64,000 nucleotides of DNA from Karstenula rhodostoma CBS 690.94 (taxonomy: Eukaryota; Ascomycota; Dothideomycetes; Pleosporales; Didymosphaeriaceae), in assembly GCA_010093485.1 (NCBI GenBank), contig MU001498.1, forward strand, positions 1,689,126-1,753,125. Direction: 5' to 3'. The notes under the pieces were generated by a model. The model saw only the letters and a list, made by a program, of their open reading frames with translations. It searched no databases and was not told the origin of the DNA. This document shows positions 4,480-24,379 of the stretch, piece by piece. The position numbers were made by a program, and so were the translations under genes. Numbering within the stretch: position 1 is the first letter of the stretch; every line of letters starts with the position of its first letter.

Positions 4480-4710
4480 GAGTAATCGCTGTCTTGGGCC
4501 CGCAGCCCGCTTCCAGTCCGGTTAGCTCCAAGGCCTTAGGCACAGAGTCTTCGTCTTTGAACTCCACATAGCCGGCACTGGATATGTTAGCAGAATTCAT
4601 AAGGACAGAGTGATACCTACCCTTCGGAGCGACCAGTAACTCTATCCTTTACGATCTGTGCCTCCACAACATGACCGACGGCCCCTGCTCTGCGGCCCGG
4701 CAACCACGCA
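4480..4710 (-). pseudogene. RRM splicing-factor fragment (RBM39/Rsd1-like), intron retained
   Basis: On the minus strand the coding segment ending at 4621 reads VEAQIVKDRVTGRSEG. After a 43-nt interval the segment from 4577 reads AGYVEFKDEDSVPKALELTG. Together these match RNP1 and the strands around it in RRM1 of the RBM39/Rsd1 splicing-factor family. The interval 4578-4620 is a classical intron: donor GTAGGT, branch TGCTAAC, acceptor CAG. Phase is kept across it. Both flanks dissolve: upstream the first RRM strands are out of frame, and downstream the expected linker and second RRM are unrecognisable. Because the intron is present, the copy arose from DNA duplication, not from reverse-transcribed mRNA. 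It is unlikely to encode a working protein. Confidence 0.6.
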
Positions 4711-5402
4711 CCCGCCGCACCACATTCGTCATGCCTCCCGTTGGCATATTCATTTGTCATCCCAGATGAACTGGTGTGCGATATGACAGCTGGCGAATCA
4801 AGGTCACCGACAGGGGATTGAACCTGGTCTTCCGCGAGTCGGCTACTGATGTCTCGAACACGCCCAAAGACTTGGTCTCTATCCGTGGGAAATATCTTGG
4901 AGTTGGATCGCGGAGATCTACGTCTGCTTTGCAAGAACGCGGCACCACTGGAACTGCGTTGAACTCGTCCTTGGCTGTTTCCTCAAACCACCGATTTCAT
5001 TATCGGGAATCTCTAGGCCGGGTCAGCCATACCACTGGAAGGTGGTTGACTTTGCGAGAAGCGGGCAGGTCCTTGAAAGGAGGTGGTTCCAAGTCATGGT
5101 CTTCGGCTGTATGCCAGGTGTCGAGTGAGCTCCTTCTGCTCCAGGTCCGACTGGGAACCAGACTTGCCTGAGGCTGATCTCCGTGAGATGTTTTACAGTC
5201 TTCATCATCATGTTGGGTTGACCGTTCGGAGCCTGGCCTCCAGGGAAGTTCCGTTCATCATGTTTCGTTGCCGAGCAATAGCCACATACTGGTCCCGAAA
5301 CATCACCTGGCACAGGTCAAAAGGTTCTTTGCTGCCCCCTTCTCTCACGAAACACATATCGTAATGTGCTCGATCAATTCTCCCTGTCCAAACGGCACAT
5401 CA

Positions 5403-5775
5403 TCACAAGGCACTGCGGCCCCTCGGATATCCGCACGCACCGACAGCTTTGGTATGGGAGAGGCTGAGAAGCGTTCGCGCTGTCACTCCTTTGTGAGCCA
5501 TCTTCTCGCCATTTTCCCGTCGTACAGGCTGCATCCGCTGTTTAGCCAGCTTCTCTTTAACTGATGCATCCTCTCTTAAATCCACCTGCGTGCCAACAAT
5601 GAGGCAGGGAACACCAGGGCAGTGGTGTTGCACTTCGGGAAACCATTTCTCTCGACTGTTCTTGAACGATGCAGGTGAGGTGACGGAGAAGCACAAGAGG
5701 ATGGCCAGGGGCGGCTCCGAGTATCGGCCCCTGGCCTATCTCCACGAGTTGTGGAGTCCAGATACTTCGCACTTC
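5403..5775 (-). pseudogene. Cdc42-type Rho GTPase relic
   Basis: The minus-strand frame 5403-5696 begins CFSVTSPASFKN and continues through EKWFPEVQHHCPGVPCLIVGT with the TQVDLRED nucleotide-specificity motif and AKQRMQPVRREN. This is the middle of Cdc42, roughly residues 80-145. Upstream, 5700-5775 still resembles the switch II region but is one frame off and substituted. Downstream of the GEKMA segment the Cdc42 C-terminus, including a CAAX box, cannot be found. The P-loop and switch I are also missing. This is a truncated, frameshifted copy of an essential GTPase, so a functional CDC42 is presumably elsewhere in the genome. I saw no intron inside the recognisable part. Confidence 0.75.
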
Positions 5776-5848
5776 CAGTACTGTTTGTTGCGGAATCAAG
5801 TTGCGGTCATTGTCTTTGCGCGCTGGGCATCCTGGCAGTTTCAATCCA

Positions 5849-6110
5849 TCAGCGGAGTCGGTGCCGTCGGCAACCATCTCGAAAGGAGCTTGCCAACTGA
5901 GCATAATGTCCATCGCAGTCTTTGTTGCCAACAAAGGCAGCCAGAGCGTCGTGCTTTTCTTCCAGCTTATGTACCTTCTATCCGACGAGACCGACGTGGA
6001 GGACAGCCTAGGTTGTGCCAGCGGCGTCTGCAGCGCGGACAGTATTCGTGACGCCGATGTAGCCCTGAACCGGAACCTTCTGATCGCCAATGCTTCTCAA
6101 CAGCATAAGA
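5849..6110 (-). pseudogene. Decayed reading frame with two TAG stops
   Basis: One minus-strand frame from about 6110 to the TGA at 5851-5849 has smooth protein-like composition (QGYIGVTNTVRAADAAGTT, then KVHKLEEKHDALAAF) but is broken by TAG at 6010-6008 and TAG at 5980-5978. Both stops are one C-to-T change from CAG, as expected from deamination-type mutation. I do not recognise the family. It may be part of the same decayed block as the Cdc42 relic just downstream on this strand. Confidence 0.35.
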
Positions 6111-7779
6111 CATCGACATCAAGCATGATGACAGGCGCAGGCCTGTGATGCCTCTGGACTTTGTTCACGGTGGCAGAAAGTACGTATTCGACCCTGGTAT
6201 TTGCACCCGAACAGAAGGACGGCAATGATGACTGGGTCACTCTTGACCTCGAATAGATACTGCGTACAGAGAGCCCGGGGTAACACCTGCGGATCTTGTT
6301 GTGCGACAACCTCTAGGTCTGAGCCATTGGTGGATGTTCTGAGGGGTCTTCAAGGCTTTGGCGGTTTGTGTGCTGACAGAGACGTAGTAATTCGACTTCT
6401 GTTGTTCGCGGAGACATTATCGACAGCGATGCGCGGTCGATAGACAGCTCCAACGGTTGACGACGGAGGTGGTGTTGCAAGAGATATTTTTCGGTATTTG
6501 GGCTCGGAGCGCCCTTTGAGCACCCCTTCAACGGAGACCGTGTATCCAGTCAGGCAGCTTGTCTCGCGCTCCTGCTATGCGCAACAGAATCTGCAGTCGG
6601 TCTTTGAGGCTTCTGCGGCACGTGCAGTTCTGCTTGCCTACCGGTCGACTTGCGGGGCGAGGTGGAACAGCCTGCCACGTTCTGGAACCGCAGCGCTGGT
6701 GTCGTGCCATCAAGGCATGCGGTCTGAGGCCGGAGCCGCTGCGTTTAGGATTGTCTGGGCTTGCAGCTTGCGTACATGGCGTGATCGAGGTCGCCGATGC
6801 CACGACGAGGATGCTCCCAGCAATTCGCCGCATCCCTCGAGTTCTATGCCACATTAGAGAATCACCCAGCGATGTTTGCCTCTCGGAACGTACCTGATTC
6901 TGCAAGGCTTTGCTGGAGGTGGGCGAAGAATCCTCCGTTGGTGTTGGCGGTCCCACGAGCTGCGGAGAAAGAACATGGTGTGCACCCCACCGCGAGGGGT
7001 TGCAGGCTCTGACGAGTGGGTCGAAGTCCAAAATTGCTGATGCTTGTCGAGGCCATGCATAGCTCTGCGTAGCCGCCGTGCCTTCCTCGAGGTACCGCCA
7101 GGCGGATGGTGGTGGTGAGGGGCCAGGTCGTGTGGAGGCAGACGAGCACCGCGGCGACGTCCACATCGCCGTCACAGCAGCCGCAGCTAGAGCAGCCGCT
7201 TGCGAAGCTCAGCACCCTCGCCGAGACGCTGGCCGTGGGAAGCCTACCTGCATGCTTTGTGCGTTGTGCGTTATGCGTTGTGCGTTGTGCGTTGTGGTTT
7301 GTGGAGGAGCTGGTGTGGAGGAGATGGTGTGGTGAGGGTAGTGAGGTTGGGGACCTCGACTCGACGCGCCAACGCCGCCGCCCGAGCTCAAGCACCGAGT
7401 GAAGGGCACCGCGAGCAGAAGAAGCCGAACGGCAGCTTGCACGAGTGTCATAGCAGAAGCTCGAGGACGTCCTCGAACGGTCGAGGGCTCCTATGATGCT
7501 CCGAAGGCAAAGGTTTCCCCTGAAAGACTTGGGATGGGCTATACCGCCTACCTTGGGCTTGTATGAGGCAAGGAAGCTACCTCGCGACACGCTTAGTCAA
7601 TGCCCTGTGTGCCTACTGGGTGCCTCGCTGCTCGTAGTCCGTTTGTAAAGGGCGAAGTGAGGGGTTGCCACAGGAAGGACTTTGCAATATCTGGCAACCA
7701 CGCGTGAATCACCACCTCGAAAAAGAACCCACGCCGTTCTGAAGCCACCGGAAACTCTAAGAATCATTTCTGGGACGCC
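6111..7779. other. No recognisable gene; short heptamer repeat
   Basis: No frame on either strand has a recognisable domain. At about 7259-7295 there is a tandem 7-bp repeat (unit GCGTTGT, about five copies, one with an A change). The long frames here owe their length to GC-rich sequence and change composition along their length. I see no gene I can support. Confidence 0.4.
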
Positions 7780-7972
7780 TATATATATTTAAGTTTTGGC
7801 AATTGTCAATGTGCAGTCACGGTAGCGCTCATCTGCCGTGGCTGCACATAGGACAGATGCTAACTTGTGCTATAGGTCGGCAGTTCGAACACCGCTGTCG
7901 CCAGCGCTGCTCTAACGCCTGGGCGTAACATACCCACCGAATCAGGCTTCTTTTTTGCGGCTTTTTTGGGCA
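7780..7972 (+). ncRNA. Structured, probably Pol III-type RNA element, copy A
   Basis: A TATA box (7780-7793) lies about 16 bp before a 14-bp hairpin: 7809-7822 pairs with 7836-7849 (13 Watson-Crick pairs, one G-U). Its loop is TAGCGCTCATCTG (7823-7835). The 5' arm resembles a tRNA A box (TGCAGTCACGG, 7812-7822). A B-box-like AGTTCGAACACC follows at 7882-7893. Between them are GCTAAC (7859-7864) and TATAG (7871-7875). A 3' block from 7914 (AACGCCTGGGCGTAACATAC, then CCACCGAATCAGGCTT) leads into T6 runs at 7951 and 7962, usable as Pol III terminators. Copy B at 10849-11071 shares the TATA spacing, loop, GCTAAC, B box, 3' block and T-runs, but its stem differs in sequence and is still paired. 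It is not a tRNA: no T-stem can form around TTCGAAC. Alternatives are a SINE or a Pol III-transcribed small-RNA precursor. Confidence 0.6.
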
Positions 7973-8896
7973 ATGGGGGCGGACGTAGGTAATGCCAGGC
8001 AGCGTCGCTTATGCCGGCCTAGCAGCTTTTTTGTCGAGTCAAGGCAAAGCCCTGCGTCTATCCTGCTTTTTTCGCTTCTTGGGATTGCTATGTTGTGGGA
8101 TGAGGCAAAGCGTTCGTTTGCTACCCATGCAGATGGTTCGCCAATGCAACCACCACGCTCGACCCCACAGTAGCTACGCCATAGTCGTCGAAAATCCGGT
8201 TTTCGTACTCGACAACAGCCCTGGTTTGGCTACCTCCTACAAGTCATCTCACGATAGGGGTTTCTCGAGTTCCTGTCCCTGGCTCTGGGCCATGAAAGTC
8301 CAAAGCCACTATATTGGACCGGGACGATGCATATGGTCGGGCACAGGAACGGCCACGCTCGCAATTCCATAGGTGGTAGACATGCCACGATAGCCATACC
8401 ACGACCGCTAAGAAACCAGCAATCATTCTTAGTCACGACTCTAAGTCTGGTAGATCCTACAAGTCATCCCGAGATAGGACATTTCTGGGTTCTTGACTGC
8501 CGGATTGTATGGATCTGAGTACATGCACATCATGGCAGGCTCTTAGTTCGATTCAAAAACGTCGCCTCGTGCATATTCCTCTGGCGCTGCTGCAAGCGTC
8601 TAATTGGATGTCACATCCGTCAACGTCGATTCGTTAGGCACGCATTCATGAACAGCATTTGGTTGTATTTGCAATGCGCCGGAAATGCTCACTTGGGCGG
8701 TTTACAAAGATAAAGTCCGGCTTGCAAGAGCGCGCGAAGTATCACAATTGGCAAAGATGAAGTCATGGGTGTTGTTGCGGGCATTGTCACGTCTGCAAAA
8801 GCGGGAATTCGAAGGGGAAAGACCAGGTCTCATTACCTGCATTGGCGACTATGGACTGGAAGCACAATGGCCTAGGGTTCTTCGACCCGCTCGTCT
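7973..8896. other. Intergenic; diverged short duplication
   Basis: No gene is supported. Two related segments of about 50 bp lie at 8221-8275 and 8447-8495 (both contain CTGGT...TCCTACAAGTCATC, then GATAGG and TTTCT.G.GTTC.TG). They look like a diverged local duplication. Confidence 0.4.
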
Positions 8897-9451
8897 TCAC
8901 TGGGCCTCAACACGCTGTGCAGGCAGTCCTAGTTGTCTCCTCCGCCGCCCTTTGCCGCCCTCCTGATCTTCTTTCTTCTCCTGCTGACGCTTCCTCTCCT
9001 TCTCCGCGGGTGTAAGCTTGTGGCCCTGGCCGCCATCCGCCGGCTCTTGCTTCTGCACCAGCTCGAGGTCTCCACTGGGCAGAGAGCTCAGGCCAGCAAC
9101 AACGACTTGGAGCCACTGGTAGACGCGCTGGAAGCAATGCAAGACGCGCCAGGCCCAAGTATCCTCACGCTTCTCGAACTTCGCCCTGCACACCTCGCAA
9201 CTCGTAGCCCTCTTCGCCGCGCAGAATTCGCACTTGCGCATATTGCGCTCGTCGTTGCCATGCTTGGTGAGGTTCGCGGAACACACATAGCACTCCCACG
9301 GTTTCTTGGGCCCTTTGCGGGTGGATTTGTTCTTGAACCGCGTCAAGGAGTTGCCGATAACCGTGTAGATGACGATGGAGACATCGAAGAGCTCGAGGAG
9401 GCGGATCAAAATCGGTTCATTGGGGTCGATATACCCCATGTAGTCGGCCAT
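8897..9451 (-). CDS. Small Cys-rich, probably zinc-binding protein
   Basis: Single exon, 184 aa, ATG in a good context (ACCATGG). Residues about 10-35 are hydrophobic (PILIRLLELFDVSIVIYTVI) and could be one membrane or amphipathic helix. A basic stretch (KNKSTRKGPKK) is followed by paired cysteines, CYVC, CEFC and CEVC, spaced like a zinc-ribbon or double zinc knuckle, with a further Cys in the next helix (LHCF). The C-terminus (about 60 residues) is charged and Lys/Arg/Glu-rich, probably disordered. I do not recognise a named family and assign no function. A 258-codon frame on the opposite strand covers the gene but has no motif and is taken as a GC-driven shadow. The gene lies between the two structured RNA elements. 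Confidence 0.6.
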   Translation of the reverse strand: MADYMGYIDPNEPILIRLLELFDVSIVIYTVIGNSLTRFKNKSTRKGPKKPWECYVCSANLTKHGNDERNMRKCEFCAAKRATSCEVCRAKFEKREDTWAWRVLHCFQRVYQWLQVVVAGLSSLPSGDLELVQKQEPADGGQGHKLTPAEKERKRQQEKKEDQEGGKGRRRRQLGLPAQRVEAQ

Positions 9452-10208
9452 GGTGCTGCGCGCGGTGCCGGTCGTTCGTGCCTGGTTTCGACGTTTGGAC
9501 CTTCAGCAAATGGCCAGCGGACTCTTGGAGCTGTTCGTATGTATGCCTACCTGGCTGTTCCTCGATCTGCGTCCGCCGGGTGCGGTGGTGGTGTTGCCGC
9601 GGTCGACGGGAGAGAGGGGACGGCTGGCTACGCTCGCCGCCCCACACGTGTTTGCGCCAAGAGATATCCCACACACAGAGCCAGCAAGGAGCTTTACCGA
9701 ACTTGGTAGCTCACTCGTCTAGCAAGCAGCGGGGCTACGGAACAGTAACGATGCATGCACGCATTTATTTGGGTCCTCTTGAGGAAATGTAAGGCGTGCT
9801 AGCTTTTCGAAATCCCGCATTTTGGCCGCTTCTATCAGAATGCTCAATATGCGCGTGCGTATCGAAGTAGACACCTTGCCCCGGGGATCTCAGGGAGCAT
9901 TCCCAATTTGAAAGGGACCTCGGCATCTCTGGAATGCAGCTTGATGGTCCTCCTACGATTATGCTTGTCTTCCGTCTAAGGAGGCATGTCATGTGGATGT
10001 TGGGCATGACAGAGGGGATAGTGAAGTACATCACGTCACGCATTTCACGTGCATGGCAGTGGATATGTTGGGATTTCAAGCTGTGTTCAATATGGGCGAT
10101 ATCCGTGCATCACCTTATGCGCTCCACCACAAGCTCCCCGGCTGGTTACCATCCGTTTGGCAGCGCCTGTGTAGACTTTAGCGCGCGTCGGAGGTTCTTG
10201 TTCCTACA

Positions 10209-10658
10209 CTAGGGTTCTGTTGTACCGTTGTTCTCCAGGGGCATCGTGTAGTTGGTATCAAGGGCGTCGTTCCGCCGCTCTTCGAAAATCGCGGCAAGCC
10301 ATATCACGACGCCCAGGGGAACGGCGAAGCCGAGGTCGCAATCGAAGAGAAAATATCCGAGGAACAAGACGCTAATGGCGAAGGCAAGCACATCGCCGAA
10401 GGGGAGGTCGTCGCTCAAGTGAATGTTGCCGAGCAAGATAACGCAGACAAGGAAGGCGAAATCGCGGAGGTCGAGGCCGTCCTCCGCCACGATGGTGCAG
10501 GGGTACAAGCCCATGCTGAAGGCCAGAGCCTCGGGGCGGCTGAGGTCGTTGCCCACATTGTTGCCGCCGAAGCACATGCTAAGCACGCTCGGGGAGATTT
10601 CGCGGGCATCGTACCCAAGGATGGCCATCATATACACGATCAAGAGCAGATCGGTCAT
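10209..10658 (-). CDS. Small hydrophobic membrane protein
   Basis: From the ATG at 10658 the protein is 149 aa (MTDLLLIVYMMAILGYD...); the same frame is open further upstream to 10784, but that extension is Pro/Arg-rich and unlike the rest. At least three hydrophobic segments are visible: the N-terminus, FAFLVCVILLGNIHL, and VLAFAISVLFLGYFLFDCD followed by FAVPLGVVIWLAAIF. The tail (EERRNDALDTNYTMPLENN) is polar. No catalytic motif or named family is recognised. It starts about 190 bp from, and divergent to, structured RNA copy B. Probably lineage-specific; function unknown. Confidence 0.5.
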   Translation of the reverse strand: MTDLLLIVYMMAILGYDAREISPSVLSMCFGGNNVGNDLSRPEALAFSMGLYPCTIVAEDGLDLRDFAFLVCVILLGNIHLSDDLPFGDVLAFAISVLFLGYFLFDCDLGFAVPLGVVIWLAAIFEERRNDALDTNYTMPLENNGTTEP

Positions 10659-10848
10659 TTTCGGAGTTGGTTCGATGTTGTAGGCTGACTTGGGTGGGGT
10701 TGGTGGGTGTCGAGTGCGGTGTTGAGGTGAGAGTCGAACAGAGCCCGCGACTTCCCTTCCAAAGGCAGCCACGTCCCCCACCAATATCCCTTCACTTCAC
10801 CCCACAAACTACAATGCCAAAACACCAATACCCGCATGGTCTTTGGGG

Positions 10849-11071
10849 TTTATATATTTTCGTTTTGCAGTATCTTTCGATCAACTCCACGGTGGACGAA
10901 TGGTAGCGTCATCTGCTATTCGTCTGCCGTGGGGTTGATCGTGGAGCACTTGCTAACTTAAACTTGATAGGGCACATGCACGGCAACAGTTCGAACCCCA
11001 CTCCCGCCCAGCTGGGTTTCCAACGCCTGGGCGTAACATACCCACCGAACAGGCTTACTTTTTTGCTGGTT
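10849..11071 (+). ncRNA. Structured, probably Pol III-type RNA element, copy B
   Basis: TATA box at 10849-10860, 18 bp before a 26-bp hairpin without bulges: 10878-10903 pairs with 10916-10941 (22 Watson-Crick and 4 G-U pairs). The loop TAGCGTCATCTG (10904-10915) is that of copy A less one base. The top of the 5' arm, TGGACGAATGG (10893-10903), is a good A-box match. GCTAAC (10952-10957), GATAG (10966-10970), the B-box-like AGTTCGAACCCC (10988-10999) and the 3' block from 11022 (CAACGCCTGGGCGTAACATA, then CCCACCGAACAGGCTT) follow in the same order as in copy A. T-runs at about 11059 and 11070 end it. Stem sequence differs from copy A throughout while pairing is kept, which supports an RNA-level function. 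No canonical T-arm, so not a tRNA gene. Confidence 0.6.
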
Positions 11072-11207
11072 TTTGGGCCTCCTTGGATGCCACCCCACTT
11101 CCACGCTGATGACGAGTGGCAGAAGCTATCTCACGACGAGCAGCGGTTGACAGCTGCCTCTAGGCTACGACGTCCCTCTTTTTGCGTCCACGGAGAGGAT
11201 GGACCGC

Positions 11208-11399
11208 TTTGATTGCAGCTGCCAGAGCACGTTCCGATACCGGGAGAACTAACATGTACGTTCACTAAGCGAAGTCGGGTAATCCTTCGAATACTTCGGG
11301 CTATGAGCTCGCCTTTTTGGACGAACTTCTTTGATTTTGCCTGCCAGAGCAGGTTTCGTTACCGACAGAATTAACACACATACATTCACGCAACATATG
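11208..11399. repeat. Diverged tandem duplication, about 70 bp, two copies
   Basis: Segments 11208-11276 and 11329-11399 share CTTTGATT..., then CTGCCAGAGCA.GTT.CG.TACCG..AGAA.TAACA and a less similar tail containing TTCAC. Many of the differences are C/T or G/A transitions. No coding sense is visible in either. Confidence 0.5.
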
Positions 11400-11866
11400 T
11401 AGGTATTACGATCGCCATCGTACATTTCTTTTATTCTAGTCCGAGATTATCAAGTCAACGATAGGGCTGTAGACCAGCTGTATGCAGAAGAGGAAATCCA
11501 ACGAAGACACACAGTCGATTGCCGCAAGCGGCGAGCTATCTACTACATGATTCCAACTCGACCTCTCCTCAAGTACCCTGCGCATCGCCTGGTCCTATCA
11601 CGCTGGAATCCGGCGAACAGGACTCCTCACAACAGCACTGCTGATGCCCTCTGAACTCCTCCGGTTGGCCCCATTGTTGGCCCTAGCAATGCTGGCCACA
11701 CTGTGGATGCATCCCCAGCGGAGATACTGCGCGAGTAGAAGGTTCCTTCTCGTAGTCACGCTCGCGGTCTCGCTCTCTCTCACGGTCTTTGCGACTCCGA
11801 CGAGAGGAGTGGTATGTGTCATCTTCCCAGTCGCATGTAGAAAAACCGTGTTCGACCTACGATGGT
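11400..11866. other. No recognisable gene
   Basis: Open frames on both strands here are Arg/Ser-rich and overlap. I see no domain or exon structure. Confidence 0.35.
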
Positions 11867-12702
11867 TTAATTGTGTTTGGTCGTGCGAGGTTGCACTCCT
11901 TTCCTCCTCATGGTCTTCATGAGAAGTCTGAAGAAGCCTATGTGGCCGTTGAACACGTTCAACAATTGCATTTGGCCAACGACCCATTCTGCGAATGCGT
12001 AGAATGGGTCGTTTACCAAATGCTGCAGCTTATCAAAGCTCGTTGGATGCAAGAACAATGGTCGCTTTTATAAGGAGGCTGAAGACGCCTTTGCTGGTGT
12101 GTATGTGCCCTTCGTGGCCGTTGACCACGCCCAGCAATCGCATTTGGCCAACGACCCATTCCGCGCATGCGTAGAATGGGTCGTTTACCAAATGCTGCAG
12201 CTTATCAAAGCTCGTGGGATGCAAGAACACGTGCACATGCTTCAAGAAGAGTTGCTCAAACGCATATTTGGTCCTGTCGTACAGTTCTTTGTCGATCCGA
12301 AGCAGCGAGACAGTGTCCTCATCGTCTAGCTCTCGTGCTATGTTGTTGACGATCTCCGGAGGTGTCCGCTGGCGGGCGTTGGGGGAACGCACGCATGGCT
12401 GGCTAAGCTTGCCAGTTTTTAAAGTGAAGCATTCCCATGCACACAAGGTGTATCGGCGGGCGCTCGCACTCTTCGGCAGGCCGACTCAAGTAGAGTGATT
12501 TGCCAACCAGATGCAGCGAGGCAATGTTCTGATTGAATAGCTCTCGTGCTATGTTGTTTATGATCTCGGGAGGCAGGCCTGGGAGCCTTGACTCTCCTTC
12601 ACTATTGCTGGCAGCTCGTATAGGGTGCTGACGGAGTACAGAATCCTCAACAATCGTAGCGTTTGTGTCTTGCATCCTCAACGTGTATGCCCTGTATTCC
12701 AT
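11867..12702 (-). pseudogene. Duplicated, broken F-box protein sequence
   Basis: Two F-box starts lie in tandem on the minus strand. One near 12595-12520 reads LPPEIINNIARELFNQ; the other near 12375-12310 reads PPEIVNNIARELDDEDTVSLLRIDKEL and continues into EQLFLKHVHVFLHPTSFDKLQHLV. The first frame runs into a stop soon after its F-box. Downstream of the second, about 115 bp (12115-12229) is repeated almost exactly at 11942-12057, so FLHPTSFDKLQHLV and EWVVGQM appear twice in different frames. F-box proteins recruit substrates to SCF ubiquitin ligases, but no substrate-binding domain is intact here. I read this as remnants of tandem F-box genes. Confidence 0.6.
11942..12229. repeat. Direct repeat of about 115 bp inside F-box sequence
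   Basis: 11942-12057 and 12115-12229 are nearly identical (both contain CATTTGGCCAACGACCCATT and GCAGCTTATCAAAGCTCGT). The similarity extends weakly to the left (CTGAAGA.GCCT), giving a unit of roughly 170 bp. Confidence 0.75.
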
Positions 12703-12977
12703 CTACCGGAAAGTACGGATGCGTCTTGTTGTACAACTTGTCGACAAGACAAGATCGTTTCGAGAATCGGATCGGTACGGTAGCCTGGGAGGTCTGGTGT
12801 CGGGCAGCGTCGACATTTTGCAGGAACTCGGCGTCTGGTATTGGTTCGGTTCAAGGTAGGGAGTAATCGGGTCTTTGAGGTTACTGATCTGGGTAGGCTG
12901 GCATGCAGTGGTTTGTGGAGAACCAGCAGCAGGGAGGGGTCGTGGGAGCGCATTCGGCCGCACGCCAACGGTCGACG

Positions 12978-13436
12978 ATGGCTACAAGTAGTTCGTACAG
13001 CTTGAGCATGGCACCAGCAGCTTTACCTGGTTGCTATCAGTACTCATCTACTTCCGGAACCCAAGCGGACTACCTACTCCACCTTCCGAGAGCTCACATG
13101 CGCCATACAGCGGCCTCTCTGGAGAGCAACAACTCCCGAAACCTGAAACCGGATCTCTTCTCGCCACTGAGCCTCACTCCTCCAGAGTCAGTTGGTGTTG
13201 GAATGGTAAGGACTCTCGATCCACCGAAGTGGCAGGCGCGATGGAATCGAGGCCTCGCGATGTCGCTGCGGACGTCGGGAACTGAAGAGGCTTGTCTTGC
13301 GGCTCCTGAGGCTTGGTTCGATGGCCCAACCCTGCGCAAAGAGATCAGAAAAATGTTGCGCGCATACCTGGACCTGCGGAGGGCCGAAGCAAAGCTTACC
13401 AAAGGCCTCCAGGAAGCCCAAACAGCCCACGTGTAG
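12978..13436 (+). CDS. Hypothetical short protein (doubtful)
   Basis: From the ATG at 12978 the frame gives 152 aa with a Ser/Ala-rich start and a helical C-terminus (LRKEIRKMLRAYLDLRRAEAKLTKGLQ) that looks like genuine coding sequence. The frame is also open upstream to 12903. No family is recognised. It could be a lineage-specific gene, a fragment of a longer spliced gene, or chance in GC-rich DNA. Confidence 0.3.
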   Translation: MATSSSYSLSMAPAALPGCYQYSSTSGTQADYLLHLPRAHMRHTAASLESNNSRNLKPDLFSPLSLTPPESVGVGMVRTLDPPKWQARWNRGLAMSLRTSGTEEACLAAPEAWFDGPTLRKEIRKMLRAYLDLRRAEAKLTKGLQEAQTAHV

Positions 13437-13924
13437 GATCACGTGGTTGCGCAGCTGTTTAGGAGTCGCGCAAGACGAAACTGTTTGGCATGATCGAGGC
13501 GGGACTCTGGCCGCGTGGAGAGTACGTTGGTAGGGCTTGAGGGGAGTAAGAGGACAAAGCTGGCGAACGTGGGTGGGCAATCACGGGTTGCCGGCCGTTC
13601 ACCGGAGTAGCAGCACAGCACCCGAGAAAGGGAGCTAAGCCAAGATTGGCGGGAGAGGGGGTCACGCCCGGCGCCATGGCACAAGATCGACACACATCAT
13701 ATAAACTCCCCCGCGGCAGCTTCACCAGCTTCAAGAATCCGTCGACAGCATCAACGACTCGTACTCGAGCTCACCACGGAGAATTCCCCCTATAGCAACC
13801 ACGACAAAAGGTAAAAGCGCCGCAAGCTCGTGACCATTCGACTGTCTAACCTGGCAAACCTGTAAGCAAGCAACCCAATTCTCGAGTCACACCGACCAGC
13901 GCGACAAAGCCAGGACGTCGCAGC

Positions 13925-15107
13925 ATGGACCACGATAGCAAGCAGAAGGATCTGCCCATAGCGGCCAGCATGTCAACGTGGGCCACCGAGGAGGAAACTA
14001 ACTCGGGCTCAGTTGCGCCATCGTCGAGCACCCTGGCACCTCTTCAACCGCCTTCACCAGACCCCAACGCTGCTCTGTCTCCTTACCTTAAGGACGACGC
14101 CACCTACCAGGAGGCGTTCGATCCGACAATCAACGACAAGAACAAGGAAGGTCAGGAGAAGGCGAGCGCAGTTCGCACGAAACCGTTCGAAAACACGAAG
14201 ATAGAGGGCAAATTGGATAGCTCTGCTCGCGGCGACAACTCACCGAGCGACGCTACTCAGCCGGCTTCCACTGGCTATGAACGGAACATTTGGCGTCGGA
14301 AGTCGTCAACAGGGCAGCAACAACTACCAGAAAGACGACGACGGCAACGGCCTTGACAAACATGACGGCCACGACCACGACCACGAGGATGCCGCTGCTA
14401 ACTGTACAGACCCAGGAGCAGGTAGCGACGTAGCGGATAGCTACTAGAACTTTACCAACGATATCAACTCGAAAGAAGCCGAAACCCCGCTCAGGTTCCG
14501 CATTATCCTTCCAACCGCCGAGGAGAACGTACGCTGCGAGATAGAATTGGGTAAGCTCCACGAACCGATCATCGATCCCAAAGGAGCTCAGGTACGTAGT
14601 GATGCCCAGTTAGCACTCGCGGAACAGCGAGAAGAATGGGGAGACGAGTTTCCGCCAACCGATCTCGACGCCGTGCCTTGGAACCCTCATAACTCTGCAG
14701 CGCAAGATGCTCCCGGCGACTCACAACAGCAACGGCCGGGCTCAGAATCAACTAGCACTACGATCGCGTCCTTGCTTCCAGTCACGCCTCTGCCGACTGT
14801 GTTCGAACCCGGCGCGACAACTTCGACTCAGAAGAGTACTCCGGTCGATAGCGACGCTTCCACCAAGACATGCGAGTCGCTGCAAGGCAAGGATGCAGCC
14901 CAGGTCAACGACGCAGCTGCAGCTGAAGCCAACACTGCAGCCTCGGTCAACATCGTGCCCACTTGGAGCAGCTTCCAGGGCCCGCCGAGCCCTACGTGCG
15001 AGGCAGACGACGACGAATACGACGACAACTATAACAACAGTGGTGGCATAGAGGGCCTTTTGAAGGCGAAAAAGAAGGCGCAGAACAAGAAGGCGCAAGG
15101 CATCTAG
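13925..15107 (+). pseudogene. Disordered acidic protein gene with one frameshift and one stop
   Basis: The first frame (13925-14356) begins MDHDSKQKDLPIAASMS and has coherent Ser/Pro/Asp-rich composition to about 14280. There it turns Arg-rich, while another frame becomes coherent: NNYQKDDDGNGLDKHDGHDH, and later TPLRFRIILPTAEENVRCEI. That second frame runs to the stop at 15105-15107 and ends KKKAQNKKAQGI. It contains a single TAG at 14446-14448 (after DVADSY). No intron with usable splice sites explains the switch. The parsimonious reading is one gene of about 390 codons damaged by a one-base frameshift near 14280 and a nonsense change; sequencing error is possible for either. No domain is recognised, and most of the protein would be disordered. 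Confidence 0.55.
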
Positions 15108-20505: not shown

Positions 20506-22162
20506 CTCGTCTTTCTTCCCATTGAACGCCCCCGCCTCAACCTAATCTTTCTATAATCTATAATGCTTTCGAACGTCATCTATTTTCTTAGAGGTTCTAG
20601 GATACCTTTGTGCACTGTCTCATATTATCCTTTCGCCCACATCTCGCCACCAACTAGGCTCTCTTCGCCGCTTGTCATGACATACGCACTAAGTCTGTTC
20701 ACAACGTTACGGAGGATAGGTCTACCACATGGTCATACTCTTCAAAGAATAGGCGACAGGACTGTGCGTATCCTACAAACCATGTGGCAATCTTGTCTGC
20801 TATGCTTCGGCGTTTCCGTATCGAGAAGCGTGAACAGTGAGATGAACATGCGGACGTTATCCACAAACTAAGGCTACCTTTCTGTAGCTTAGGGATATTA
20901 TTTCATTGTTTCATGTTCGCTATAACTTGATGCGCTTCCAGTCTCTGGCTGTTTCTCGGTTCGGGTAGGGAAGGGCTCCCTTTCCGTGAGAGCGCTAGGC
21001 AAACACCGACGAAACGCAAGCGTCTGCAGAGGATGCTATTAAGAAAAACTTCTCTGCATTAGGCATTGCTCTACCTATTACTTAAGCGCTTGTAAATCGT
21101 TGTTTGGTTGATAAATGTTCTCTTTAATTCTAAATCGTCGTCGTGCACCGTGTTGAGTTTCACAGAATGTTCATAGCAAGGGAAGACTCTCCCCAGAGAG
21201 CTTGTTAAACAGTCACAGAGAAATATGGGGAATGCAAATTGGTAACTATTACGGTGCACAATTCTCCGAGTCGCAATAGTGCGCGCGTTTACAACTCGTG
21301 CGTTCAGAACAAGAACTGTCCACAGACGGACGGTGCTGCTTTTACCACTACATTTACGATATCCTAGGCGGATGTTACCACCGTGGGCATCTGCGTGAAG
21401 CTGTCTGTGCACATTCTGTGACTGAGTACGCGTTCTGCAATAGGCGGAGGCACGACGCGTGACGTTATGCGTCTGCCATCTCCTTAGTGTGAACTTCTCG
21501 CAAGGGATGACTAGCTATGTGAGATAGATTTATGCTCACTCAAAGTCTCATTCATCGAGCCGAGAGTCGGAGTTACCCGAACTTTGGTTCTGACGTCTTC
21601 TCAGTGTTGACTCATTAAAGAATCCAGCTACAACAAAGACGATAGGTGATTTCATAATACATGATTGGGCGAAGTGAGTCAAGCAGTTGTGCCACAAGTT
21701 CTGGCGTGACTGTGGCGGCTGGAACAAAATGCAAATACACATGTGCCCCAGGCCAGCGTGTAGACACGTGACTAAAAGATTGCAAAGCCGGGGAAAGACT
21801 GCAAGCTGCCTTTGGCCGCACGATGATGTCGCGAAAGTGTAGATCGGAATCAAGAACGCCGAGACTGCCAACGAAAGCTTAAAGTTACCCCGTGGGGAAG
21901 TACGACTGGGGCAAAAGTTCGTGTTTTCGGTGCATCGTCACCCGAACGTGTGTCATTGGGCGGCCGTGCACCTTCCAAATTTTCCGTCGCCTTGGCCACC
22001 ACCCCCGCAACTTTACGCATGCAAGATTAGTGTCGCCGCCATTCCTTCGACGCTGCAACAATATTTCCAGGATCTCCAAAGGCATGGCAAATGATACCCC
22101 ATTGTCCGAGCTAAGGGATAGGAGCGAAAAGACGCGAGTACGTGGGTGACATCACGTACCGG
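20506..22162. other. Intergenic, no gene seen
   Basis: Frames on both strands are short and irregular. The last part (about 22100-22245) is the promoter side of the PL4 lyase gene. Confidence 0.5.
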
Positions 22163-22169
22163 TATATAA
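22163..22169 (+). promoter_or_regulatory. TATA box of the PL4 lyase gene
   Basis: TATATAA lies 77 bp before the chosen ATG at 22246. Its position would put transcription start near 22195, leaving a short leader. This argues against using the in-frame ATG at 22207, which would sit almost at the transcription start. Confidence 0.5.
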
Positions 22170-22245
22170 TCGCCATGGCTACCTCGGTGAATGCCATTAT
22201 CGCCCATTGCGCAGCACGCGTAGACACTGTAATTACATTCCCAGG

Positions 22246-24379
22246 ATGCGCTTTGGTACCGCGCGTGGAGCGCTCCTGTTCGCATGCATTGGCTTCGCCT
22301 CAGCACGCTTGACCGCCAACGAGACGTCCGCGTATCTTCAGCTTGAAAATGATCACCTCTTTGTCTCGGTAAACAAGTCCATCGGACGGGTAGACCTCCT
22401 GGTGCTTGACGGGCAAGATTTACTTGGTTCGGCAGCCTACATCCCATACACGCCGGGCGGCTCCTCTGGCGATGGCAGATACGGTGTCGGGCCGTATCTC
22501 GATTGCTATTGCATCCCTGCCAATGGCCCTTCAAGCACCGGATCTGGATCATATACGCCTGGTACCATTGCCCCGACCTACAAGCTGTTCAAGGGTGTGG
22601 ATTCTCACCATGCCGCCTATGGTGGTATCATGATGAGCGAAACATATCCACCCACAGGCCAGGTGCTACAACAGTACTGGTTCCTTCGAGATGGTGAGAC
22701 TGGACTGCACACTTTCAGTCGCATTGCCTACCATAACTCGACTACGCCTTTCCTACGAAACTTACAGGAATTCAGGACGCTCTTCAGGCCAAGCACTGAT
22801 TTGTGGACCGACCTGATCACCGACGATAGTCTTGCTAGCAAGATGCCAGTTCCGAACCCGGCTTCAGGCAGCACTGCGAATTCGACGACCGTTCAAGACG
22901 CTACTTGGTATATCGGCAATCGTACGAATGACCCGTATGTTGAAGAGTTCGCGGATTACTTCACCAAGTATACCTTTTCGACGACTTGGCGTGACCAAAA
23001 GGTCCACGGACTGTTCGGCGACGGGACGAACAGCAAGGACAACTCAACTTTCGGTGCCTGGCTGGTCATGAACACGAAAGACACTTACTATGGCGGTCCA
23101 ACACATTCAGACCTGGTTGTCGATGGGATCATATACAATTACATGGTGTCAAACCACCATGGTGACGGTACGCCCAACATCACGGATGGCTTCGATCGCA
23201 CGTTTGGTCCTCAATACTATCACTTCAACAGAGGCCCTGCAGGTGCTTCCTGGAGAGAGCTAAGGAACGAAGCTGTAAAATACGCCACCCCGTCCTGGAA
23301 TGCGGAATTTTATGATTCGATCGCGGAACACGTTCTGAATTACGTGCCGACCTCAGAGCGAGGCTCGTGGAAGGCCAAAATTGACTTGCCTAAGGGTGCG
23401 AAGAACGCGATTGCAGTTCTAGCTCAGGATGGCGTTGACTTCCAAGACAATGTTCTAGATACTTCAGCTTATCAATATTGGGCAGATGTCGAGAGCAATG
23501 GCAAGGTCGAGATTGATCGTATCAAGGCGGGCAAATATCGGATGACGGTGTATGCCGACGGCGTTTTCGGTGATTTTGTACAAGATGGCGTTGTTATACG
23601 AGCTGGAAAGTCGACCAATAGTGGTAACCTGAAGTGGAAGGCCGAGTCCGCTGGCACTGAGCTCTGGCGCATTGGAACCCCAGATAGAGCTGGTGGAGAG
23701 TGGAGACATGCTGCGCAAAGACTCGGTGCGCCGCAGCATCCTGAGGAGTATCGCATCTATTGGGGTGCATACGACTATCTCGAGGACTTCCCCGAAGGTG
23801 TAAACTATCACGTCGGGAAGAGCGACCCGGCGAAAGATCTCAACTATATCCATTGGTCTGTTTTCGGCGGTTATGCGAACTGGAAACGGCCCGAACAAGT
23901 TGCTGGCCATGGCGAAATCAACAACTGGACAATAACGTTTGACTTGAAGAAGCACGATCTTGACAAGAAGAGGGATGCAACGTTCACAGTCCAATTAGCG
24001 GGAGCGAAGACGGCAGCTGGCAACACTGATGTTTTCAATGCAACACAGCCATGGAACAATCTACCCCTCGCCGTTGTCGTGAATGGGCATGAAGTGGAGC
24101 CTTGGATCATCCCGTAAGTGCACCCCGAACAACTTAACAATAGCTGCAGACTTCTAACATGCTCCTAGGTATAACCAGTCATCTTCTTGCGCGACCCGCA
24201 GTGCCATCATTTGCTACACACTAGGTCACAAGTATACGTTCCCAGCAAAATATTTGTCTGCCGTGGAGACGAACGAGTTGGTTCTGAGCCTGCCATACAA
24301 TGCGACAGACTACGAGTCGGCGCTGCTACCAAGGAGTGTATATGTGCAGTATGATGCATTGCGGTTGGAGGTCAAATAG
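22246..24379 (+). CDS. Secreted rhamnogalacturonan lyase, PL4 family
   Basis: Two exons, 22246-24113 and 24169-24379, give 692 aa; the intron has donor GTAAGT and acceptor TAG. The N-terminus MRFGTARGALLFACIGFASARL is a signal peptide. Next come the PL4 catalytic beta-sandwich, an Fn3-like middle domain (about residues 410-460, KVEIDRIKAGKYRMTVYADG) and a C-terminal carbohydrate-binding-like jelly-roll (from about 480, ELWRIGTPDRAGGEW, with EEYRIYWGAYDY and NYIHWSVFGG). That domain order and length are those of fungal RglB-type rhamnogalacturonan endolyases. These cleave the rhamnose-galacturonate backbone of pectin by beta-elimination outside the cell. Several NxT/S sites are present. The last exon is needed for the CBM-like domain (ending YVQYDALRLEVK). 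It lies in the same neighbourhood as a pectate lyase. Confidence 0.9.

Follow-up and report, generated by a model that had tools for sequence, protein, structure and literature searches.

A candidate family of small RNA polymerase III genes with a variable 5' hairpin and constant downstream motifs in Karstenula rhodostoma

Introduction

Vault RNAs, Y RNAs and adenovirus VA RNAs are short RNA polymerase III (Pol III) products with hairpins and U-tails, and VA and vault RNAs are served by internal A and B boxes. To our knowledge, few fungal Pol III RNA families have been recognized beyond tRNA, 5S, U6, signal recognition particle (SRP) RNA and RNase P/MRP RNA. Here we describe two copies of a hairpin-bearing element in a 64,000-nucleotide stretch of DNA from Karstenula rhodostoma CBS 690.94 (Pleosporales; assembly GCA_010093485.1, contig MU001498.1, positions 1,689,126 to 1,753,125 of the forward strand), hereafter the window. 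We propose that copies 1 and 2 are probably paralogues within a family of genes for a small noncoding RNA (ncRNA) made by Pol III, with five members and one degenerate member on a single contig.

An earlier sequence-only reading of this locus had offered three identities: a new ncRNA family, a short interspersed nuclear element (SINE), or a precursor of microRNA-like RNAs (milRNAs). The first of these fits best, whereas a SINE does not suit five copies that keep an upstream TATA, and the milRNA option is weak. As references for the internal promoter elements we used the consensus sequences TRGYnnARBGG (A-box) and GGTTCRAnYCY (B-box), as given in an excerpt of PMC11547032.

Results

The two window copies lie on the forward strand at 7780-7956 and 10851-11064, with 3.1 kb between them, and both carry the modules that the sequence-only reading had listed, at the positions and in the order it gave: TATA box, TTTTG, hairpin, TGCTAACT, B-box, conserved 3' block and T-run. 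That reading put the conserved block at about 36 bases. Its start points, 7914 and 11022, hold, but only 28 bases are identical without interruption (7914-7941 and 11022-11049), after which the identity continues, by eye, to the end of the T-run with two one-base indels. When the whole genome (44.3 Mb, 29 contigs) was searched at the DNA level with either copy, nothing was retrieved beyond the query and its partner, the latter at 80.6 bits (E 5.6e-15) in one search and 79.7 bits in the other. Likewise, the 28-mer occurs twice in the genome at up to three mismatches, against no occurrence in the control. The flanks of the two copies are unrelated: when 4800-9300 was compared with 9301-14500, all other matches had E values of 0.8 or worse.

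Are there further members? The sequence-only reading depended, among other things, on additional homologues, and three of them, m1, m2 and m3, form a 1.1-kb cluster 0.9 Mb from the window on the same contig, where they were located by a TGCTAAC plus B-box pattern (C7:800596, 800931 and 801545). All five members have in common the TATA, TTTTG or TTG, the hairpin, GGYRGCG in its apical part, TGCTAACT and the B-box. The m1 and m2 sequences are 90% identical over 105 bases, and m1 and m3 are 70% identical over 224 alignment columns. The first 20 promoter bases of the locus spanning m1-m3 (L027) are those of copy 1. Sequence profiles took the place of a covariance model, since the variable stems were not aligned correctly by MAFFT, and the profiles were run against a target set of 143,856 bases comprising the window, L060 (a longer locus that contains the cluster), L081, L082 and 16 other loci. 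The m1-m3 profile matched copy 1 (E 5.7e-6) and copy 2 (E 2.2e-4) from TATA to B-box, and these were its sole matches outside L060 in the target set. Conversely, the profile of copies 1 and 2 matched m2 (E 4.4e-5) and m3 (E 1.8e-4). The family, its promoter layout, the pairing of its stems and their strand bias can be read from the sequence directly. Segmental duplication was not seen, the window-copy flanks being dissimilar and the best of 92 protein-level matches between L060 and the window having an E value of 0.005. The possible degenerate sixth copy in L060, matched at 4652-4769, reached E 0.03 with the m1-m3 profile and E 5.9 with a profile of all five members.

The pattern searches delimit this set. 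A TATATAT plus TGCTAACT pattern gave 12 matches, against four in the control; nine fall on the five family loci, and the other three, which are AT-rich (L061, L071, L072), were dismissed on their matched sequence and have no profile match. Five of the 12 matches to the TGCTAAC plus B-box pattern are copies 1 and 2 and m1-m3; six others (L048, L049, L050, L057, L058, L059) were read and judged not to belong to the family, as was L051, which is tRNA-like by eye. A tRNA-Ser locus (L047) was a weak match to the five-member profile (E 0.1) and was set aside. One match on a viral contig (L005) and six in bacterial genomes covered small parts of the conserved block and were taken as chance. Since the family patterns demand exact motifs, more diverged members may exist. 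Separately, L060 holds a degenerate tandem repeat with a unit of about 170 bases (L060:1561-2042).

The sequence-only reading had likened the arrangement to a Pol III gene such as U6, and the layout does agree with that of the U6 and SRP genes found in this genome. In both, the TATA precedes the RNA start (TATATGTAT by 30 bases in U6, TATATATA by 29 bases in SRP), TTTG lies between the two, and a B-box, CAGTTCGAGTCC, follows downstream, in U6 inside an apparent intron (by eye). In the family, the hairpin base lies 29, 27, 30, 29 and 31 bases after the T that opens the TATA run in copies 1 and 2, m1, m2 and m3, respectively; when the U6/SRP spacing is applied to copies 1 and 2, the predicted start is no more than about 3 bases away from the hairpin base. 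In four of the five members, folding a longer stretch of flank together with the hairpin extends the minimum-energy structure by pairs that lie 5-9 bases further out. By eye, the B-boxes fit GGTTCRAnYCY at 9, 10, 10, 10 and 8 of 11 positions (same order), and every member has a terminator of at least five T.

A pattern of the promoter, built from copies 1 and 2 together with the U6 and SRP genes of the genome, gave 33 matches at 20 loci, against five matches in the control. ARAGORN, run on 18 of the 20 loci, found six tRNAs; U6, SRP, the L027 cluster and copy 1 account for four more. Among the remaining eight, four are tRNA-like by eye (L022, L033, L038, L042), two appear to be chance matches (L025, L036), and two are Pol III-like without an assignment (L037, L039). 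The last two share the promoter layout of the family and have no profile match, so that they were not counted as members. One of them (L039:1502-1780; G000:C15:602089, forward strand) has a TATA, TTTTG, TGGCGAGTTGG, GGTTCGAGTCC and a T-run about 250 nt on, with no Rfam match up to E 5; the other (L037; G000:C12:1357112, reverse strand) has a TATA, TTTG, GTGCTAAC immediately 5' of the B-box, and CTCTTTTTGCTTTTGC. As a further observation, the U6 gene (L012:1501-1657; G000:C3:1527927, forward strand), whose B-box is the intronic one, is accompanied a few hundred bases away by a convergent U6-like copy that has no intron and is diverged in its 5' part (L012:1938-2036; 1528364, reverse strand).

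The same promoter evidence bears on whether the elements could be a SINE or another retroposon family. The A-box-like and B-box sequences and the T-run would suit such an origin. However, the five copies and the relic all sit on one contig, where they form two local sets, the whole-genome DNA searches with the window copies (a method that skips very common words) found no dispersed copies, and the TATA and TTTTG are conserved upstream of the predicted transcript, where retroposition would not carry them. We consider a retroposon extremely improbable.

Folding gives perfect stems in both window copies, at 7809-7825/7833-7849 and 10878-10906/10913-10941. They are 17 and 29 bp long rather than the 14 and 26 bp of the sequence-only reading, and they do not differ nearly everywhere, as it had held, since CACGG and CCGTGG occur in both; its statement that they are fully paired apart from G-U is borne out. 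All 46 pairs form, seven of them G-U and none A-C, a pattern more in line with selection acting on the sense RNA than with simple repair of a palindrome in the DNA. The hairpins of m1, m2 and m3 add 15, 17 and 20 pairs, for a total of 98 pairs, 15 of them G-U. Compared with 500 dinucleotide shuffles, the hairpin-region energies give z scores of -7.1 (copy 1), -11.0 (copy 2) and -3.8 (m3). The sense fold is more stable than the antisense fold in all five members, by a small margin in m1 and m2. The three clustered members are built alike: a basal helix of 6-7 pairs is followed by a loop of one base against three, by 2-3 further pairs, by a one-by-one loop and by an apical stem, which has 7 pairs in m1, 8 in m2 and 11 in m3. 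By eye, copy 1 resembles m3 after matched deletions in both arms. The basal helices of m1-m3 are paired in 24 of 24 cells, with one double change.

Could the hairpin be the product? If these were Pol III precursors of milRNAs or hairpin RNAs (hpRNAs), Dicer would cut the 5' hairpin and the remainder would serve as promoter and terminator. The 29-bp, mismatch-free hairpin of copy 2 is in keeping with this, and an excerpt of PMC3547838 reports that Pol III is needed for the major milRNAs of Neurospora. Dicer would call for a stem of about 20 bp or more, and the stems have 29 bp in copy 2, 20 in m3, 17 in copy 1 and m2, and 15 in m1. Four of the five are in the range of 15-20 bp, however, and three of these have internal loops. 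The best-conserved parts other than the promoter lie outside the hairpin. The single arm stretch that was tried (22 nt of copy 2, up to three mismatches) had no other genomic match and so lends no support to a silencing target. Moreover, the excerpted text of PMC3547838 describes no predicted A or B box for milR-1, and T-runs that come immediately after the milRNA in milR-1 to milR-4; unlike the text, a figure legend in the same paper marks putative A and B boxes among milR-1 to milR-4. On balance we regard a milRNA or hpRNA precursor as unlikely.

Downstream of the B-box, GCCT...ACCGAA(N)CAGGC stands ahead of the T-run in four of the five members with differing loops, and the window copies have an additional GGGCGTAACATACCC in the tail loop. 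Copies 1 and 2 both fold with the 4-5-bp tail stem formed. Genome-wide, the tail pattern gave seven matches, against three in the control; three of the seven (L074-L076) were read and had no Pol III context. Inspection by eye for a conserved helix around GCTAAC revealed none.

The constant TGCTAACT raises another idea, namely that it and a following YAG form an orphan branch site and 3' splice site that recruits splicing factors, whether as a decoy, as a trans-splice acceptor or as the end of a hidden intron. By eye, a CAG or TAG ends 9-13 bases after GCTAAC in all five members, and the genome's U6 gene apparently has an intron (also by eye). Yet a YAG at such a distance is not unusual, inspection by eye showed no consistent 5' splice site, and a crude scan for introns stayed at the level of noise (11 and 18 matches, against 15 in the shuffled control). 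We judge this decidedly improbable.

Finally, no match of the elements to a known RNA was found, just as the sequence-only reading could not match them to 5S, U6, SRP, RNase P/MRP, U3 or a tRNA. Rfam 15 gave no match at the gathering threshold in the window, and at E<=10 two sub-threshold matches, which lie between the copies; on the m1-m3 locus there was one sub-threshold match, beside m2, and none on the elements. These sub-threshold matches all fell far short of their cut-offs. ARAGORN (bacterial setting) found no tRNA in the window or in that locus, and the U6, SRP and MRP RNA genes were located elsewhere in the genome. Among top-ranked literature matches (titles and abstract starts), there was no description of this family. 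Might it nevertheless be a known family too diverged for the Rfam models, such as RNase P RNA or a small nucleolar RNA (snoRNA)? The RNase P model RF00009 had no match in the genome, which leaves one expected Pol III RNA unaccounted for; as it matched none of the control genomes either, that miss shows little. Five divergent copies of 113-187 nt would suit RNase P RNA poorly, a search by eye alone showed no C/D or H/ACA boxes, and the elements themselves have no Rfam match. A diverged known family is in our view improbable.

Table 1. Coordinates of the features of the family (window positions unless prefixed L060)
Feature	Position	Strand	Remarks
Copy 1 upstream promoter: TATATATAT 7780-7788, TTTTG 7794-7798	7780-7798	+	22 of 23 bases identical to m2; layout as in U6 and SRP genes
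Copy 1 5' hairpin, 17 bp; base is the predicted transcription start	7809-7849	+	Folding, z -7.1 for region
Copy 1 A-box-like TAGCGCTCATCTG, hairpin apex	7823-7835	+	GGYRGCG in 5/5 members; first half fits TRGYnnARBGG, second half does not
Copy 1 conserved TGCTAACT	7858-7865	+	Identical in 5/5 members
Copy 1 B-box AGTTCGAACAC	7882-7892	+	9/11 to GGTTCRAnYCY
Copy 1 tail: 28-base block, GCCTG...CAGGC pairing, terminator T-run 7951-7956	7914-7956	+	
Copy 2 upstream promoter: TATATAT 10851-10857, TTTTG 10863-10867	10851-10867	+	
Copy 2 5' hairpin, 29 bp, 0 mismatches, 5 G-U	10878-10941	+	Folding, z -11.0 for region
Copy 2 A-box-like TAGCGTCATCTG, hairpin apex	10904-10915	+	
Copy 2 conserved TGCTAACT	10951-10958	+	
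Copy 2 B-box AGTTCGAACCC	10988-10998	+	10/11 to GGTTCRAnYCY
Copy 2 tail: 28-base block, GCCTG...CAGGC pairing, terminator T-run 11059-11064	11022-11064	+	
TATA of m1, m2, m3	L060:4008, 4343, 4952		
Possible degenerate sixth copy	L060:4640-4790		Hairpin, ACTGACTGTGTATAG, GCATTCGAACC, T-run; TATA not clear

Elsewhere in the window, 11600-12700 contains internal repeats, with short stretches 43-84% identical between translated frames, where Tandem Repeats Finder reported none. The nearest named match of the PL4 lyase frame at 22150-24117 is a protein from Paraphaeosphaeria sporulosa, with 94% identity across 95% of the frame, which places the fungus in or near that genus.

Discussion

How well does a Pol III ncRNA family account for all of these observations? 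Several weigh against it. The TGCTAAC plus B-box pattern that located the cluster gave 12 matches in the genome and 13 in the control, so that the pattern as such is not enriched. The profile of copies 1 and 2 missed m1, and its match to the antisense strand of the palindrome in copy 2 itself was as strong as its match to m3 (E 1.8e-4). The TRGY half of the A-box fits four of the five members (m3 has CGGC), and the second half fits poorly. As for the pairing that the sequence-only reading expected of additional copies, m1-m3 each fold a hairpin at the same place, but that of m1 is weak (z -0.3, no better than its shuffles) and that of m2 has a z score of -2.6; m1 and m2, being near-copies, are not independent. 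The basal-helix pair count of m1-m3 was matched by 169 of 500 shuffles, because only three sequences contribute. At the 3' end, m2 has no tail and ends directly after the B-box, m1 and m3 do not form the tail stem in their minimum-energy folds, and in copy 2 that stem faces a competing CGCCCAG/CTGGGCG pairing.

What might such genes make? We predict that TFIIIC would bind the B-box together with the A-box-like sequence at the hairpin apex, and TFIIIB/TBP the upstream TATA. We infer from the layout that Pol III would start at the hairpin base and stop at the T-run, yielding RNAs of about 113-187 nt, with lengths of about 148 and 187 nt for copies 1 and 2. Each RNA would begin with a 5' hairpin, of which the pairing and not the sequence is kept, and continue into a constant UGCUAACU; in four of the five members the 3' end would be GCCU...ACCGAA(N)CAGGC with a U-tail. 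The constant pieces would most likely bind a shared partner, and the 5' hairpin would act as a sequence-independent structural module. That the RNA has a ribonucleoprotein (RNP)-type role is our guess. As a long shot, these may be lineage-restricted Pol III RNP RNAs of the Pleosporales in which UGCUAACU...YAG binds the U2 small nuclear RNP or the branch-point-binding protein as a splicing decoy or regulator. With its defined promoter, variable 5' hairpin and constant, binding-like motifs, a family of five genes would enlarge the fungal Pol III set, and its sequence signature could be used at once on other Pleosporales genomes and on RNA-seq data.

Among the closest known systems is the U6 gene of the same genome (G000:C3:1527927), which like the family has a TATA 30 bases upstream, TTTG, a CAGTTCGA B-box, a 5' stem-loop at +1 and a T-run; the family differs in lacking U6 sequence, in having its B-box in the predicted RNA instead of an intron, and in its five divergent copies. 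Similarly, the SRP RNA gene (G000:C5:204502) has TATATATA and TTTG upstream and a CAGTTCGA B-box within the transcript, but the SRP models do not match the elements, and SRP RNA has 267 bases, compared with 113-187 for the family. Neurospora milR-1 to milR-4, as described in the excerpt of PMC3547838, likewise combine a hairpin, a TATA-like element, a T-run and Pol III; there the T-run comes immediately after the milRNA, whereas the family hairpin is 5'-terminal and its T-run lies at least 57 bases beyond. The 15 fungal structured RNA motifs of PMC5640933 are likewise structured fungal ncRNA candidates, and by their descriptions in an excerpt, the sole basis of the comparison, the family could be among them.

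Vault, Y and VA RNAs differ from the family in helix layout, and no Rfam match falls on the elements.

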